The translations under genes were made by a program, and so were the position numbers. From positions 1 through 35,770 of the forward strand of contig QHPD01000009.1 in assembly GCA_003218975.1 (NCBI GenBank): a stretch of 35,770 nt of DNA, given 5' to 3'. The first letter of the stretch is position 1. The number at the start of each line of letters is the position of its first letter. Shown here one piece after another: positions 11,740 through 35,265 of this stretch. The DNA comes from Verrucomicrobiota bacterium. Lineage in GTDB: Bacteria; Verrucomicrobiota; Verrucomicrobiia; Chthoniobacterales; UBA10450. The notes under the pieces are model-generated. The model was not told the DNA's origin, ran no database searches, and was given only the letters and a program-made list of their open reading frames with translations.

Positions 11740-12345
11740 TTGAGAAAGACGGAGTATCCGGCAGCAATCCGGAATCTGATTACGCAGCTACGGCAAATGC
11801 CCGGAGTCGGACCTCGCTCTGCGGAGCGAATCGCGCTCTGGATGGTGCGGGCGCGGAACGATCAGCCGGAACAAATTGCGCGCGCTGTCATAGACACTCG
11901 CCAGTCAATTCGTTCCTGCAATCTTTGCGGATTTTTTGCCGCCGGCGAGATCTGCGAAATATGCGCGGACTCCTCGCGCTCAGCGGAGCTGCTCTGCGTC
12001 GTAGAACAGCCTACCGACATCCTCCCCCTAGAGAAAACCGGCGCCTTTCGCGGCCGATACCATTCTCTCGGCGGTAAAATTTCGCCGCTCGATCATGTGG
12101 GGCCAGAAGATTTGCGCATCAAAGAATTGATGGAGCGTGTCGATCAAGAAAAAATTTCCGAGGTCATTTTCGCGCTGCCCGCCGATGTCGAAGGCGAAGC
12201 GACCACAAATTACATTGTTGATCTTTTGAAGGGCAGACCAGTCACGCTCACGCGGATTGCGCGGGGCATCCCAGCCGGAGGCGGCTTGGAATCGGCTGAT
12301 GAATTGACCCTCTCGGCCGCGCTCTCGGGTCGCACGAAACTGTAG
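11740..12345 (+). CDS. recR: Recombination mediator protein RecR
   Basis: Full length (201 aa) and clearly RecR: the N-terminal helix-hairpin-helix RQMPGVGPRSAERIA, a C4 zinc finger (C60, C63, C72, C75 in CNLCGFFAAGEICEIC), a Toprim domain beginning LCVVEQPTDILPLEKT, and the C-terminal IARGIPAGGGLESADELTL. RecR works with RecO/RecF to load RecA on single-stranded DNA at gaps. Translation appears to start at TTG 11740; no better start is in frame. The usual neighbours dnaX and ybaB are absent; instead it follows the degenerate cyclase. Its TAG stop (12343-12345) lies within the left arm of a palindromic element. Confidence 0.95.
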   Translation: MRKTEYPAAIRNLITQLRQMPGVGPRSAERIALWMVRARNDQPEQIARAVIDTRQSIRSCNLCGFFAAGEICEICADSSRSAELLCVVEQPTDILPLEKTGAFRGRYHSLGGKISPLDHVGPEDLRIKELMERVDQEKISEVIFALPADVEGEATTNYIVDLLKGRPVTLTRIARGIPAGGGLESADELTLSAALSGRTKL

Positions 12346-12388
12346 GGGAAGCGGTTCGCTTCCCGGGAGGTCAACGGCGCCCCCTACA
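12341..12388. repeat. Palindromic element that supplies the recR stop codon
   Basis: Outer inverted arms TGTAGGGG (12341-12348) and CCCCTACA (12381-12388) enclose a perfect inner hairpin GGGAAGCG-gtt-CGCTTCCC (12346-12364). The right end CCCCCTACAATT is identical to the right end of the element inside ftsY, which suggests one family. It may also act as a stem-loop between recR and lipA, though no T-run follows. Confidence 0.6.
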
Positions 12389-18241: not shown

Positions 18242-19092
18242 GGATGCTTGTGATGAAAACGGAACCGCGCGCCGAAAAACGGGCGGGGCCGGACATGTTG
18301 ATGATCTTTATGCTCTTCCTGTGAAAGGTTCAACGGAATCGGACCGTCGGCCTTCCCGTGGATAAATTGCTGCACTTCGGGATTTGAACTGTTCCGAATT
18401 TCATCTGGCGTGCCTTGCGCCACAATCGACCCGTGGCCGAGCATAATCATCCGCGTGGCGATGCGAAAGGCGCTAGTCATATCATGTGATACAACCACTG
18501 CGGTCATGTGGCTGCCTTTAGTCAAATTCAGTGTTAGCTCGTCGACGACGGCGGTCATGATTGGATCGAGCCCCGAGGTCGGTTCATCGCTGAATAGCAA
18601 CTCGGGATCGAGAGCAAGCGCACGCGCAAGTCCCACCCGCTTTTTCATCCCGCCACTAATTTCATCTGGCTTAAGATCTTCAAAGCCGGTCAGCCCAACC
18701 ATCTCAAGCTTTTGTTTCACGATTTGTTCGATTTCGTCGGGCGACTTGTCGGTGTGTTGCACCAGTGGCAGGGCAACATTCTCGCCCACTGTGAGCGACG
18801 CGAGTAGCGCGCCGGATTGGAATAGCATCCCGAAGCGCAGCCGCACTCGTTCAATTTCACGTTCGGTCATTCCTGTAACTTCTTCTCCAAAAAGTTTCAC
18901 CGATCCTGAAGTCGGTTTCATGGAGCCGATCATGTGCCGAAGCAGAGTGCTCTTGCCACAACCGCTGCCGCCCATGATAACCAGCGTCTCGCCTCGATGG
19001 ACATTGAATGAGATACCGTCGAGCACCGCGCGATCCCCGAATCGCCGGACGAGATGTTCTACCTCGATGATAGTTTCTCCGTTTGCATTCAT
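18238..19092 (-). CDS. mlaF: MlaF-type ABC transporter ATPase
   Basis: A complete ABC ATPase: Walker A GGSGCGKST, Q-loop LFQSGALLASLTV, signature ISGGMKKRVGLARALA, Walker B LLFSDEPTSGLDP and switch His in VVSHD. The LFQSGALL Q-loop and the GGMKKRV signature are typical of the MlaF/Ttg2A lipid importers. The ATG at 19092 overlaps the mlaE stop by four bases (ATGA). The frame stays open further upstream, but that part reads as an arginine-rich shadow of mlaE. The C-terminal tail after the ATPase is His-rich (HKDHQHVRP, RFHHKHP), which is unusual and could bind metal. Confidence 0.93.
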   Translation of the reverse strand: MNANGETIIEVEHLVRRFGDRAVLDGISFNVHRGETLVIMGGSGCGKSTLLRHMIGSMKPTSGSVKLFGEEVTGMTEREIERVRLRFGMLFQSGALLASLTVGENVALPLVQHTDKSPDEIEQIVKQKLEMVGLTGFEDLKPDEISGGMKKRVGLARALALDPELLFSDEPTSGLDPIMTAVVDELTLNLTKGSHMTAVVVSHDMTSAFRIATRMIMLGHGSIVAQGTPDEIRNSSNPEVQQFIHGKADGPIPLNLSQEEHKDHQHVRPRPFFGARFRFHHKHP

Positions 19093-19829
19093 GCGCTGAA
19101 AAAGAAGATCCCCGTTAATACCGCGTTCGTCACCAGCATCGCCAGCAATGCTTGCACGACCGAAGCCGTTGTGGATTGGCCGACACCTTCGGCGCCGCCT
19201 TCCACATTTAGCCCGGCGTTGCACGCTATCGTGATCACGATCCACGCAAACACGACGCTCTTGATCATTCCCGAATATAAATCCCACGTATCCGCGCTTT
19301 CCAGCGCGCGCATCACATAGCCGGCGGTATTGAAATCGAGGGCAAAACGACAGACCGCCCAGCCGCCCAGGATGCCGATGTAATTGCCAAAGATGGTCAG
19401 CGCCGGCAGCATGACGAGCATGGCCAGAAACCGCGGCACCACCAGATACTGGACCGGGTTGATGGCCATTACTTCAAGCGCTTCGATCTCCTCGGACACT
19501 TTCATCGTTCCCAACTCCGCTGCCACGGCAGAGCCGCTCCGGCCAATCACGATGACCGCAATTAAGACAGGCCCCATCTCGCGCAGGAGCGTGATCATCA
19601 CCAGATCGGGAATGTACATTTCTGCGCCGAGACTCTGGAGCGAATGGGCAGCCTGCATGGCCAGCGTCACGCCCACACTAAACGCCGTTAGCGCCACCAT
19701 CGGCGCCGCGCGCACGCCGATGAACACCATTTGCCGGAAGATCGGCGCGATTTTAAAAAATTGCCCGCTAAACGGCGCGATCAAAATCCAGTAGAGAAGG
19801 CTGAGATTAAGCTGGAGATAGTTTTTCAA
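19089..19829 (-). CDS. mlaE: MlaE-family lipid ABC transporter permease
   Basis: The 246-aa product is a MlaE permease with five or six membrane segments and the conserved core (MGPVLIAVIVIGRSGSAVAAELGTMKVSEEIEALEVM), here quoted by its first and last parts: MGPVLIAVIVIGRSG and LGTMKVSEEIEALEVM. It pairs with MlaF and MlaD to move phospholipids across the envelope. It is the first gene of the three-gene run, and both downstream junctions overlap by four bases. Its first 20 codons and upstream 60 bp are partly duplicated at 21627-21739, beyond the FAD oxidoreductase gene. Confidence 0.92.
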   Translation of the reverse strand: MKNYLQLNLSLLYWILIAPFSGQFFKIAPIFRQMVFIGVRAAPMVALTAFSVGVTLAMQAAHSLQSLGAEMYIPDLVMITLLREMGPVLIAVIVIGRSGSAVAAELGTMKVSEEIEALEVMAINPVQYLVVPRFLAMLVMLPALTIFGNYIGILGGWAVCRFALDFNTAGYVMRALESADTWDLYSGMIKSVVFAWIVITIACNAGLNVEGGAEGVGQSTTASVVQALLAMLVTNAVLTGIFFFSA

Positions 19830-19890
19830 AACGTCGCAGTTGCGGACGCGCAGAATGACAGGCCGATTGGTATGACGAAAGCCGAAAGTT
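19773..19890. repeat. Copy 1 of a duplicated segment: mlaE 5' end and upstream region
   Basis: This stretch, the first 19 codons of mlaE and about 60 bp in front of it, aligns in the same orientation with 21627-21739. The first 54 bases differ at about seven positions by eye. Shared blocks include GAGATTAAGCTGGAGA, GCGCAGAATG and ACGAAAGCCGAAAGTT. The two copies bracket the FAD oxidoreductase gene as direct repeats. Confidence 0.75.
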
Positions 19891-33717: not shown

Positions 33718-35265
33718 ATGCGACTCTGCTGGCCGGAGAATTTTCTGCAGGGCAAACGTAGCGTTTGGATTACCGCTGCGATCACGTTCTTTTTGTTTCT
33801 CATCGCGAATTTGCCGTGGCAGCTCGACGATTATGATCAGGCCAAGCAGGCATTTACTTCCTTCGAGATGATCAAGGAAGGACGCTGGTTTTATCAGCAC
33901 ACGCCCCACGAGCACGTGGCGACCAAGCCGCCGTTGATAGGATGGATTTCGGCTGGCCTCTTTTCGATAACGCGCTCGTGGGACATAGCCTGGCGGCTGC
34001 CTTCGTTTCTGGCAGCGGTTGCGATGGCGATCTTGTTGTTTCGCGCGGCGACCTCCGCTTACGGATCGGTTGCCGGCCTGATTGCGTTCAGCGCGTTCGG
34101 ATTGAATCTGCTGAGTCCCCGGCTGGCGACGCTGGTGCGCACTGACATGCCCTTGGCGCTGGTGATTTTTCTCATCGGCCTGCTGATCTGGGAAAAGATT
34201 CGGAGAGGAACAGTGTGGAAACCGCGAGATCGAATTTGCCTCTTTGCATTGCTAACGGTCGCAATGCTGATCAAAGGCCCGATTGTTTATGCGTTTTTGC
34301 TGCCGGGGATTGTGGTGTTTCAATGGCGGCACGGCAGGGTCGGTGCGCTGCTCCGACTCCCGAAGGCTTTCGGAACAGCCCGGCGCCCCTACCAATCCGC
34401 GCCGCTACAGAGCGCGTGGTCTAGCTGGTGGCCATGGGTTGCTTCGCTGGCGATTTTTTTGCTGTGGGCAATCGGCGGCATTCTGTTTATTCCCGGTTTT
34501 TTCCACGAAGTTGTCGTGCGCGAATTCGCAGCGCGTTTTGCCGAGACGGTCCATCATCCGCAGCCGGTTTATTTTTATCTGCCACATCTGTTGCACAAAT
34601 TTGCGCCTTGGAGCGTGCTAATGATCGCGGTGGCGATTGTCGATCTTCACACGCGGAATTGGCGGTTGCCTTCGGCCTTTCGCGAAATGTCGCCTGAAAC
34701 TTTCTGGCTGCTTTGCTGGGGCGTTGGTGGTCTAATCGCGATGTCGCTGATTCCATCCAAGCGTGTTGATCGAATTTTTCCCGTTGTTCCGCCACTCTGT
34801 CTGCTTTTGGCTTCACAAATTAATCATAGGGTCGGCGCGCTGCGCCGACTCCCGGAGGCTTTCGGGACAGCGCGGCGTTCTTACCTCGGCATCGCGTTGG
34901 TTTCCGCAATCTTGTTCACCGGCGTCTACACTATTTCAAAGGTCGTTGCCGGCTATCGCGATCATCGCGACGCGCTTGCCGTTTTCGGAAGAAAGGTTCG
35001 CCATGAAGCAGAAGCGCGTCAGTGGCGTTGCGAAGTCGTTTCCGCGAAGGACGAAGGGCTGCTCCTTTACCTGCGGAGAACGCAGTTCATTGAGCCTGAT
35101 CGCGCCCTTGCGGAATGGAACCGCGAGAACATCGATGCCCTGGTTGTTTCAACCGAGAAGGCACCAGCTGTAATGCCGCAGCTTCAAGGTGCTGCCGTCT
35201 CTCAATTAAAATCAAACCAGGCAAGAGACGGCCGGCAAACAGGGTACGTGCTGATCACGCGTTAA
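33718..35265 (+). CDS. ArnT-like GT-C glycosyltransferase carrying two in-frame palindromic repeats
   Basis: A 515-aa protein of about ten to twelve membrane helices in the ArnT/PMT-2 (GT83-like) family. The acidic first-loop motif LDDYDQAKQAF, then EMIKEGRWFYQHTP and ATKPPLIGWISAGLF, match the D...E...KPPL pattern of undecaprenyl-phosphate sugar transferases. By family it would add a sugar to lipid A or another periplasmic acceptor, which fits its place after lpxB. Two copies of a 58-nt repeat are embedded in the gene in the same frame. They encode RVGALLRLPKAFGTARR (about residues 207-224) and RVGALRRLPEAFGTARR (about 371-388). These hydrophilic arginine-rich insertions interrupt an otherwise hydrophobic protein and fall in loops between helices. 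Confidence 0.85.
   Translation: MRLCWPENFLQGKRSVWITAAITFFLFLIANLPWQLDDYDQAKQAFTSFEMIKEGRWFYQHTPHEHVATKPPLIGWISAGLFSITRSWDIAWRLPSFLAAVAMAILLFRAATSAYGSVAGLIAFSAFGLNLLSPRLATLVRTDMPLALVIFLIGLLIWEKIRRGTVWKPRDRICLFALLTVAMLIKGPIVYAFLLPGIVVFQWRHGRVGALLRLPKAFGTARRPYQSAPLQSAWSSWWPWVASLAIFLLWAIGGILFIPGFFHEVVVREFAARFAETVHHPQPVYFYLPHLLHKFAPWSVLMIAVAIVDLHTRNWRLPSAFREMSPETFWLLCWGVGGLIAMSLIPSKRVDRIFPVVPPLCLLLASQINHRVGALRRLPEAFGTARRSYLGIALVSAILFTGVYTISKVVAGYRDHRDALAVFGRKVRHEAEARQWRCEVVSAKDEGLLLYLRRTQFIEPDRALAEWNRENIDALVVSTEKAPAVMPQLQGAAVSQLKSNQARDGRQTGYVLITR
34336..34393. repeat. In-frame palindromic repeat, copy 1, inside the ArnT-like gene
   Basis: It starts AGGGTCGG and ends CCCCTACC. Internal pairs are GCTG/CAGC, TCCGA/TCGGA and CCGAA/TTCGG around GGCT. 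Its right end GGCGCCCCTAC resembles the right end of the recR element (GGCGCCCCCTAC). It is about 84% identical by eye to copy 2, located 492 bp downstream in the same frame. Confidence 0.8.
34828..34885. repeat. In-frame palindromic repeat, copy 2, inside the ArnT-like gene
   Basis: It starts AGGGTCGG and ends TTCTTACC, with a 7-bp outer stem CGCGCTG/CAGCGCG and an inner TCCCG/CGGGA stem. It is the same length, orientation and reading frame as copy 1; nine or so bases differ, several of them compensating changes in the stem. Confidence 0.8.

Follow-up and report, generated by a model that had tools for sequence, protein, structure and literature searches.

Two palindromic repeats in the gene of a membrane glycosyltransferase very probably represent a GTAG-tagged REP dimer that inserted in frame within the gene, was spread by RAYT transposases and survives as a near-neutral passenger in two loops of the protein. 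The gene lies in the window, the 35,770-nt stretch of DNA analyzed here (Table 1), which comes from a 3.06-Mb genome of the Candidatus Udaeobacter type. Relatives with names comprise Candidatus Udaeobacter and Verrucomicrobia MAGs from grassland soil, and every genome compared was a MAG. The repeat is referred to below as family A, and other repeats found in the same loops as families B to F.

Table 1. Features of the glycosyltransferase gene in the window
Feature	Position	Strand	Basis or remark
ArnT-like (GT-C fold) membrane glycosyltransferase, 515 aa	33718..35265	+	ORF, Pfam PMT_2, AlphaFold2, fold search
Copy 1, GTAG-REP dimer, family A long form	34333..34393	+	Encodes ~GRVGALLRLPKAFGTARRPY, loop 1
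Copy 2, GTAG-REP dimer, family A long form	34825..34885	+	Encodes ~HRVGALRRLPEAFGTARRSY, loop 2
Likely right-end remnant of family D (GGTAGGGCGCGACCGCCGGGCGCGCC)	34398..34413	+	Inferred from right-end likeness

The host protein and the two copies

In a profile search, the product of the host ORF matched Pfam PMT_2. Its score against the NCBIfam ArnT model PRK13279 was 42 bits, far under the cut-off of 567, and orthology to ArnT itself is therefore not claimed. A sequence search of the PDB with the protein returned no match at E 0.01. The AlphaFold2 model (mean pLDDT, 89.6) was matched best by ArnT (5f15; Z, 30.1; rmsd, 3.5; 441 residues) in a fold search, with 5ezm as the next solved relative (Z, 29.1). 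As modeled, the host protein has the ArnT fold. Both repeats lie in one frame of this ORF, as stated in a preliminary description of the window, which had placed them in a membrane glycosyltransferase.

The loop 1 insert (residues ~206-226) is predicted to lie between helices 189-212 and 238-257, and the loop 2 insert (residues ~370-390) between helices 354-369 and 380-414. The insert regions include the lowest-confidence internal stretches of an otherwise confident model, with pLDDT blocks of 62 and 59 in loop 1 and a block of 56 at residues 371-380 in loop 2 (<50 at 372-375). Positive charge prevails in both loops whether or not they hold an insert (mean net charge, 2.5 to 3.5), and on that basis the positive-inside rule predicts that they face the cytoplasm. 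The active site of ArnT-type enzymes is periplasmic, and both loops are probably cytoplasmic and away from it. The glycosyltransferase with its inserts is a predicted translated product.

A repeat search of the window detected a single 58-nt repeat family at exactly 34336-34393 and 34828-34885. The copies are spaced 492 nt apart (3 x 164) and are 86% identical, an ungapped match of 50 of 58 positions that is far beyond chance within a 1.5-kb gene; the preliminary description had given these positions and this spacing exactly and had put the identity at about 84%. Their same-frame translations are RVGALLRLPKAFGTARRPY and RVGALRRLPEAFGTARRSY. The GTAG tag is degenerate in the window copies (GGCAGGG, CATAGGG), and the ends of copy 1 read GGCAGGG...CCCTACC.

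A dispersed family of GTAG-tagged repeats

Searches of the genome and its relatives found the element to be widespread. BLAST with the repeat identified six places in its own genome, and a search with a covariance model of seven copies identified about 20 distinct places there (counted at E < ~0.001). Family A is dispersed at many non-homologous places. A 26-nt search with the left half (GGTAGGGTCGGCGCGCTGCGCCGACC), allowing up to 2 mismatches, recovered it and its compensated variants in 25 of the 35 genomes of the genus, with 0 for the reversed control.

The family A consensus is a 52-nt GGTAGGG-hairpin-hairpin-CCCTACC, in which two units, each composed of GTAG and a palindrome, are inverted so that GTAG faces outward at both ends. 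Aligned copies gave the long form TGGTAGGGTCGGCGCGCTGCGCCGAC[tCCCGAAAGCTTTCGGGg]CAGCGCGGCGTCCCTACCA, where the square bracket around tCCCGAAAGCTTTCGGGg marks the variable part. In the commoner short form, a second full hairpin (GGACGCCGC..GCGGCGTCC) takes the place of the bracketed segment. Such an arrangement is known as a REP dimer, BIME or REPIN. Tag, inverted units and dispersal are all present, and by sequence the window repeats can be classed as a GTAG-tagged REP dimer. Rfam returned no match at either threshold, and the CGTC tag of RPE-4 and RPE-6 is absent, the ends of family A being GTAG/CTAC.

Stem pairing had been described for both window copies, a claim that stood only in part. 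Many stem variants in the family are changed on both sides (GTCGGC..GCCGAC, GACGGC..GCCGTC, GCCGGC..GCCGGC and GTCGTC..GACGAC), and copy 2, folded singly as DNA, was marginal compared with shuffled sequences (z, -1.75). However, copy 1 folded no better than shuffled sequences (z, 0.15), and two consensus stem pairs are broken in it. Since paired changes keep the stems across family A, the hairpin is real and copy 1 is decaying.

Repeat turnover in the two loops

Orthologues or relatives of the glycosyltransferase were found in 47 of 58 genomes and in 78 named loci, and 64 were usable for analysis of the loops. In distant orthologues and early branches of the clade, loop 1 measures 17-18 aa and loop 2 about 20 aa, with no repeat in either; inside the clade, inserted loops reach 42 aa (loop 1) and 56 aa (loop 2). 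Many species among the 64 orthologues have no insert at either loop. Because the repeat is missing from the loops of distant orthologues, the segments are insertions and not part of a conserved fold. The comparison agrees with the preliminary description on three points. The peptide (RVGAL.RLP.AFGTARR) is foreign to the enzyme family, being absent from more distant orthologues; repeated insertion of an element encoding an acceptable peptide is borne out; and the segments lack the family-wide conservation that would have spoken against insertion. Family A at loop 2 is, however, common to about ten congeners, apparently as an inherited insertion.

Family A occupies the loops in either orientation. 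Other occupants are family B (GTAGCCGTCGCC..GGCTAC, i.e., CTGTAGCCGTCGCCCTGTGGGCGACG..GGCTACAG), family C (GTAGCCACGGCTC..GGTGGCTAC, i.e., CTGTAGCCACGGCTCTGTGAGCCGT..GGTGGCTACAG), family D (GGTAGGGCGCGACCGCCGGGCGCGCC), which fills loop 1 in many congeners, family E (GACGGCTTCCCAGCCGTC type), which is nested within A in loop 2 of L020 and L030, and family F (GTAGCCGGGGTC, i.e., GTTGTAGCCGGGGTCGGTGACCCCGGC). In L022, a segment encoding LVLSEVK is nested within D. Family C is dispersed in 32 of the 35 genus genomes; evidence for dispersal or RAYT linkage covers the loop families other than D, E and the LVLSEVK segment.

On a gene tree built with the loops masked and recomputed on DNA, with occupants assigned by eye, the occupant changed at least 11 times at loop 1 and at least 9 times at loop 2. 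In loop 1, A is set against B in the sister pair formed by the window and L114 and in the close pair L117/L123. L117 has A in loop 1 and C in loop 2, and A also fills loop 1 in genome G002 (L092) and in L124. Transfer of occupants in recombined blocks was considered and is unsupported, as occupant changes did not clearly drop on local flank trees (11-14 changes versus 11 on the whole gene for loop 1 and 8-10 on parts versus 9 for loop 2), a comparison of low power given the short flanks.

At the compared sites, no target duplication was visible. Family A carriers at loop 2 lack a host segment (..IYRW) that is mostly kept by family C carriers, and they show a net gain of 2-5 aa for an element of 52-61 nt. 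This loss and small gain argue that deletion or replacement, and no simple insertion, accompanied family A at loop 2. In loop 1, CGCGCCGCTACAGAGC, just to the right of copy 1, is similar to the right-hand end of the segment in carriers of D (for example, CGCGCCATTACAGAGC in L019/L122), and the window element seems to have replaced or overlaid a D element whose right end survives there. Since insertion of 52 or 58 nt alone would cause a frameshift, surviving copies would be expected to carry compensating changes.

Reading frames and other host genes

Translation of the consensus in six frames showed that on each strand the TAG of GTAG stops one frame and leaves the other two open. Six of the approximately 20 family A copies in the window's own genome lie inside conserved genes, in several frames, a number below random expectation as judged from typical bacterial coding density. 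These genes encode the glycosyltransferase (two copies, with frame type GRVGALRR..), CysS (VGTPRRGVRSAQRADP), a Lhr-like helicase (VGTSRCDVQAAQRPVPT), PgeF (VGSALRPDHEPRG) and an LplA-like ligase (GEDAALRRPRTAQRAMPT). The preliminary description had drawn attention to the choice of the same frame in both window copies. The frame is indeed shared, but it is not special, since two frames are open per strand and others are used elsewhere.

In CysS, the insert separates the catalytic domain from the DALR domain. Among congeners, the linker between these domains is occupied by family A facing either way, by one half unit alone or by a different repeat (NVQRSTSNAQRP), and its sequences point to a similar kind of occupant turnover as in the glycosyltransferase loops.

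Several further insertions were observed. The cysS linkers of many congeners (L225-L252) contain a AACGTCCAACG-type repeat, the source of the peptide NVQRSTSNAQRP, which is apparently translated and has no GTAG hairpin. Family A was found in congeners inside ORFs resembling, by eye, DnaE polymerase (L084), PLP decarboxylase (L098) and HemW (L102). On contig C3 of the window's own genome (L058), an RluA-family pseudouridine synthase has a D-like segment (GRARPEPAPRGQSAPV) inside its domain and carries family A at the C-terminus.

RAYT transposases

Matches to REP_Tyr_transpos (NF047646, REP-associated tyrosine transposase) were found in 33 of the 35 genus genomes and at nine places in the window's own genome. 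At locus L206 of a congener (genome G004), family A lies on both sides of a RAYT ORF (1367-1426 and 1889-1948), and the TAG stop of this ORF is supplied by the GTAG of the downstream element. Sequence data thereby link family A to a RAYT gene that it borders on both sides. Other families adjoin RAYT genes as well: family F units in L194, L195, L197, L199-L202 and L205, B in L207, C-like units in L211 and an A-like unit in L215. Among the tested Y1 transposase loci of the window's own genome, none was flanked by family A, though RAYT-like genes are present; local mobilization may therefore be past or have acted in trans.

At L214/L045 in the window's own genome (contig C51), a RAYT above the NCBIfam cut-off has GTAGCC-type REPs on both sides and is likely a REPtron of the family B type. 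RAYT-domain matches also occurred in very long open frames of ~900-1600 aa (G007:C205, G000:C63, G031:C379 and others), perhaps Y1 transposase domains fused to larger proteins.

Origin of the inserts

We propose that family A, as is supposed for REP dimers in general, was mobilized by RAYT tyrosine transposases in the form of single-stranded hairpins, which would leave no target duplication. Its open frames encode Arg-rich peptides of ~17-20 residues. Copies that disrupt essential parts or the reading frame would be lost, and those in inter-helix membrane loops with a net length change that is a multiple of three would survive as near-neutral passengers, later to decay or to be overlaid or replaced by other REP families. 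Under this proposal, RAYT would be the mobilizer of family A, the inserts would be neutral, and purifying selection would account for in-frame survival.

The pair might instead reflect one insertion followed by gene conversion that made copy 1 from copy 2 or the reverse. The copies share orientation, frame and long form, and both carry a G (AGGCTTTC for AAGCTTTC) that is found in 0 of the 23 other core matches listed from the 35 genomes, a hint of either intragenic conversion or one donor lineage. Copy 2 also looks older: about ten congeners have A in loop 2, and copy 1 is absent from the sister species. However, the copies are 86% identical to each other and reach 87-90% identity with long forms elsewhere, so that overall identity does not mark them as a pair and intragenic copying is unneeded. 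Shared frame and orientation would be about a 1-in-4 event if not due to common descent, and loop 1 can be filled without a donor in loop 2, as in L117, G002 and L124. We regard such copying as unlikely. Duplication within the gene was rejected as a full explanation, as the family is dispersed and loop 1 occupancy is independent of loop 2.

It is extremely improbable that selection keeps the segments as normal working parts of the enzyme. Both loops are basic, an Arg-rich insert fits a cytoplasmic loop under the positive-inside rule, and several species share A at loop 2, but distant orthologues lack the segments, sister species carry unrelated peptides in the same loops, frames and orientations vary, inserts are nested, and AlphaFold2 assigns the inserts no confident structure. 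Domestication, by which an mRNA hairpin or Arg-rich peptide would pace translation between helices or domains, is consistent with the location of the inserts between helices and between CysS domains and with stems kept at the family level. This role is very unlikely given the lost pairing of copy 1, which folds like its shuffles, and the many species free of inserts at both sites, and neutral insertions would survive in permissive linkers anyway. The terminal inverted ends (GGTAGGG/CCCTACC), dispersal and lack of a gene of its own would also suit a MITE of the classical type, which a DDE transposase moves with duplication of the target site. That origin is highly improbable, since no such duplication is visible at the compared sites and both the GTAG-plus-hairpin design and the flanked RAYT genes point to a REP/RAYT system.

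The loops could be recurrent landing pads for a succession of unrelated REP families, in which a resident GTAG/CTAC hairpin is a favored target or recombination substrate for the next family. This proposition is doubtful, but several observations hint at it: in the window, A adjoins what seems to be a remnant of D; E sits within A in L020 and L030, and a further repeat within D in L022; sister species differ in having A or B; and the cysS linker shows similar turnover. If true, REP-by-REP replacement would amount to directed rewriting of protein linkers.

Relation to known systems

Intragenic GTAG-tagged REPs have been described by Di Nocera et al. (2013), with the highest number in the verrucomicrobium Opitutus terrae (PMC3733652). 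That study already reported GTAG-REP dimers, RAYT association and use of the element's TAG as a stop codon (PMC3733652). It also described in-frame copies that encode 20-30 aa, a gene (uvrA) with two inserts, and recB genes of two Xanthomonas species in which different REPs occupy roughly the same position (PMC3733652). Family A shares with these elements the GTAG end, short stems, dimers, in-frame copies, a two-insert gene, the TAG used as a stop and RAYT, although the genus differs and the likeness is at the level of architecture and context. The element itself is of an already published type; the extension is dense same-site turnover in two genes of one genus. Here, same-site occupancy is followed over ~30 species, with at least six repeat families, in two loops and additionally in the CysS linker. 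The literature searched contained no paper joining Udaeobacter with palindromic repeats.

Rickettsia palindromic elements are likewise palindromic repeats inserted in-frame in genes of likely functional proteins (PMC3733652). RPE-4 and RPE-6, however, form a CGTC-tagged class apparently without a dedicated transposase in an obligate intracellular host, whereas the present elements are GTAG tagged and associated with RAYT in a soil bacterium. Mobilization of REPs by RAYT via single-stranded hairpins is described in the literature, and the REPtron or REPIN-RAYT (TnpAREP) system resembles family A in its GTAG-plus-palindrome units, inverted pairing and Y1 gene bordered by repeats (PMC8266576). 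Typical REPs are mostly intergenic (PMC3733652), while 6 of the ~20 family A copies here are predicted to be translated.

Mobile palindromes inserted in frame have rarely been documented as a source of new protein segments. The genus offers a dense comparative series (~30 species, with the essential cysteinyl-tRNA synthetase included) in which gain, decay and replacement can be traced, and in which neutral passage in permissive loops and targeted insertion become testable alternatives. The two glycosyltransferase loops appear to be places where genomic parasites can park and are tolerated. As a warning for interpretation, a lineage-specific loop that is modeled with low confidence in a Udaeobacter-type protein can be a translated REP.

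Other repeats in the window

A single GTAG REP of another type (TGTAGGGGAAGCGGTTCGCTTCCC) lies at 12342-12370, and its TAG is the stop of the ORF at 11740-12345. A repeat pair at 19773-19890 and 21627-21739 matches over 56 nt (88%) plus 44 nt (75%). The second copy appears to duplicate, at a stray position, the start of an MlaE-like permease gene (19089-19829, minus strand) and is situated upstream of a phytoene-desaturase-like gene, both genes being named by eye.
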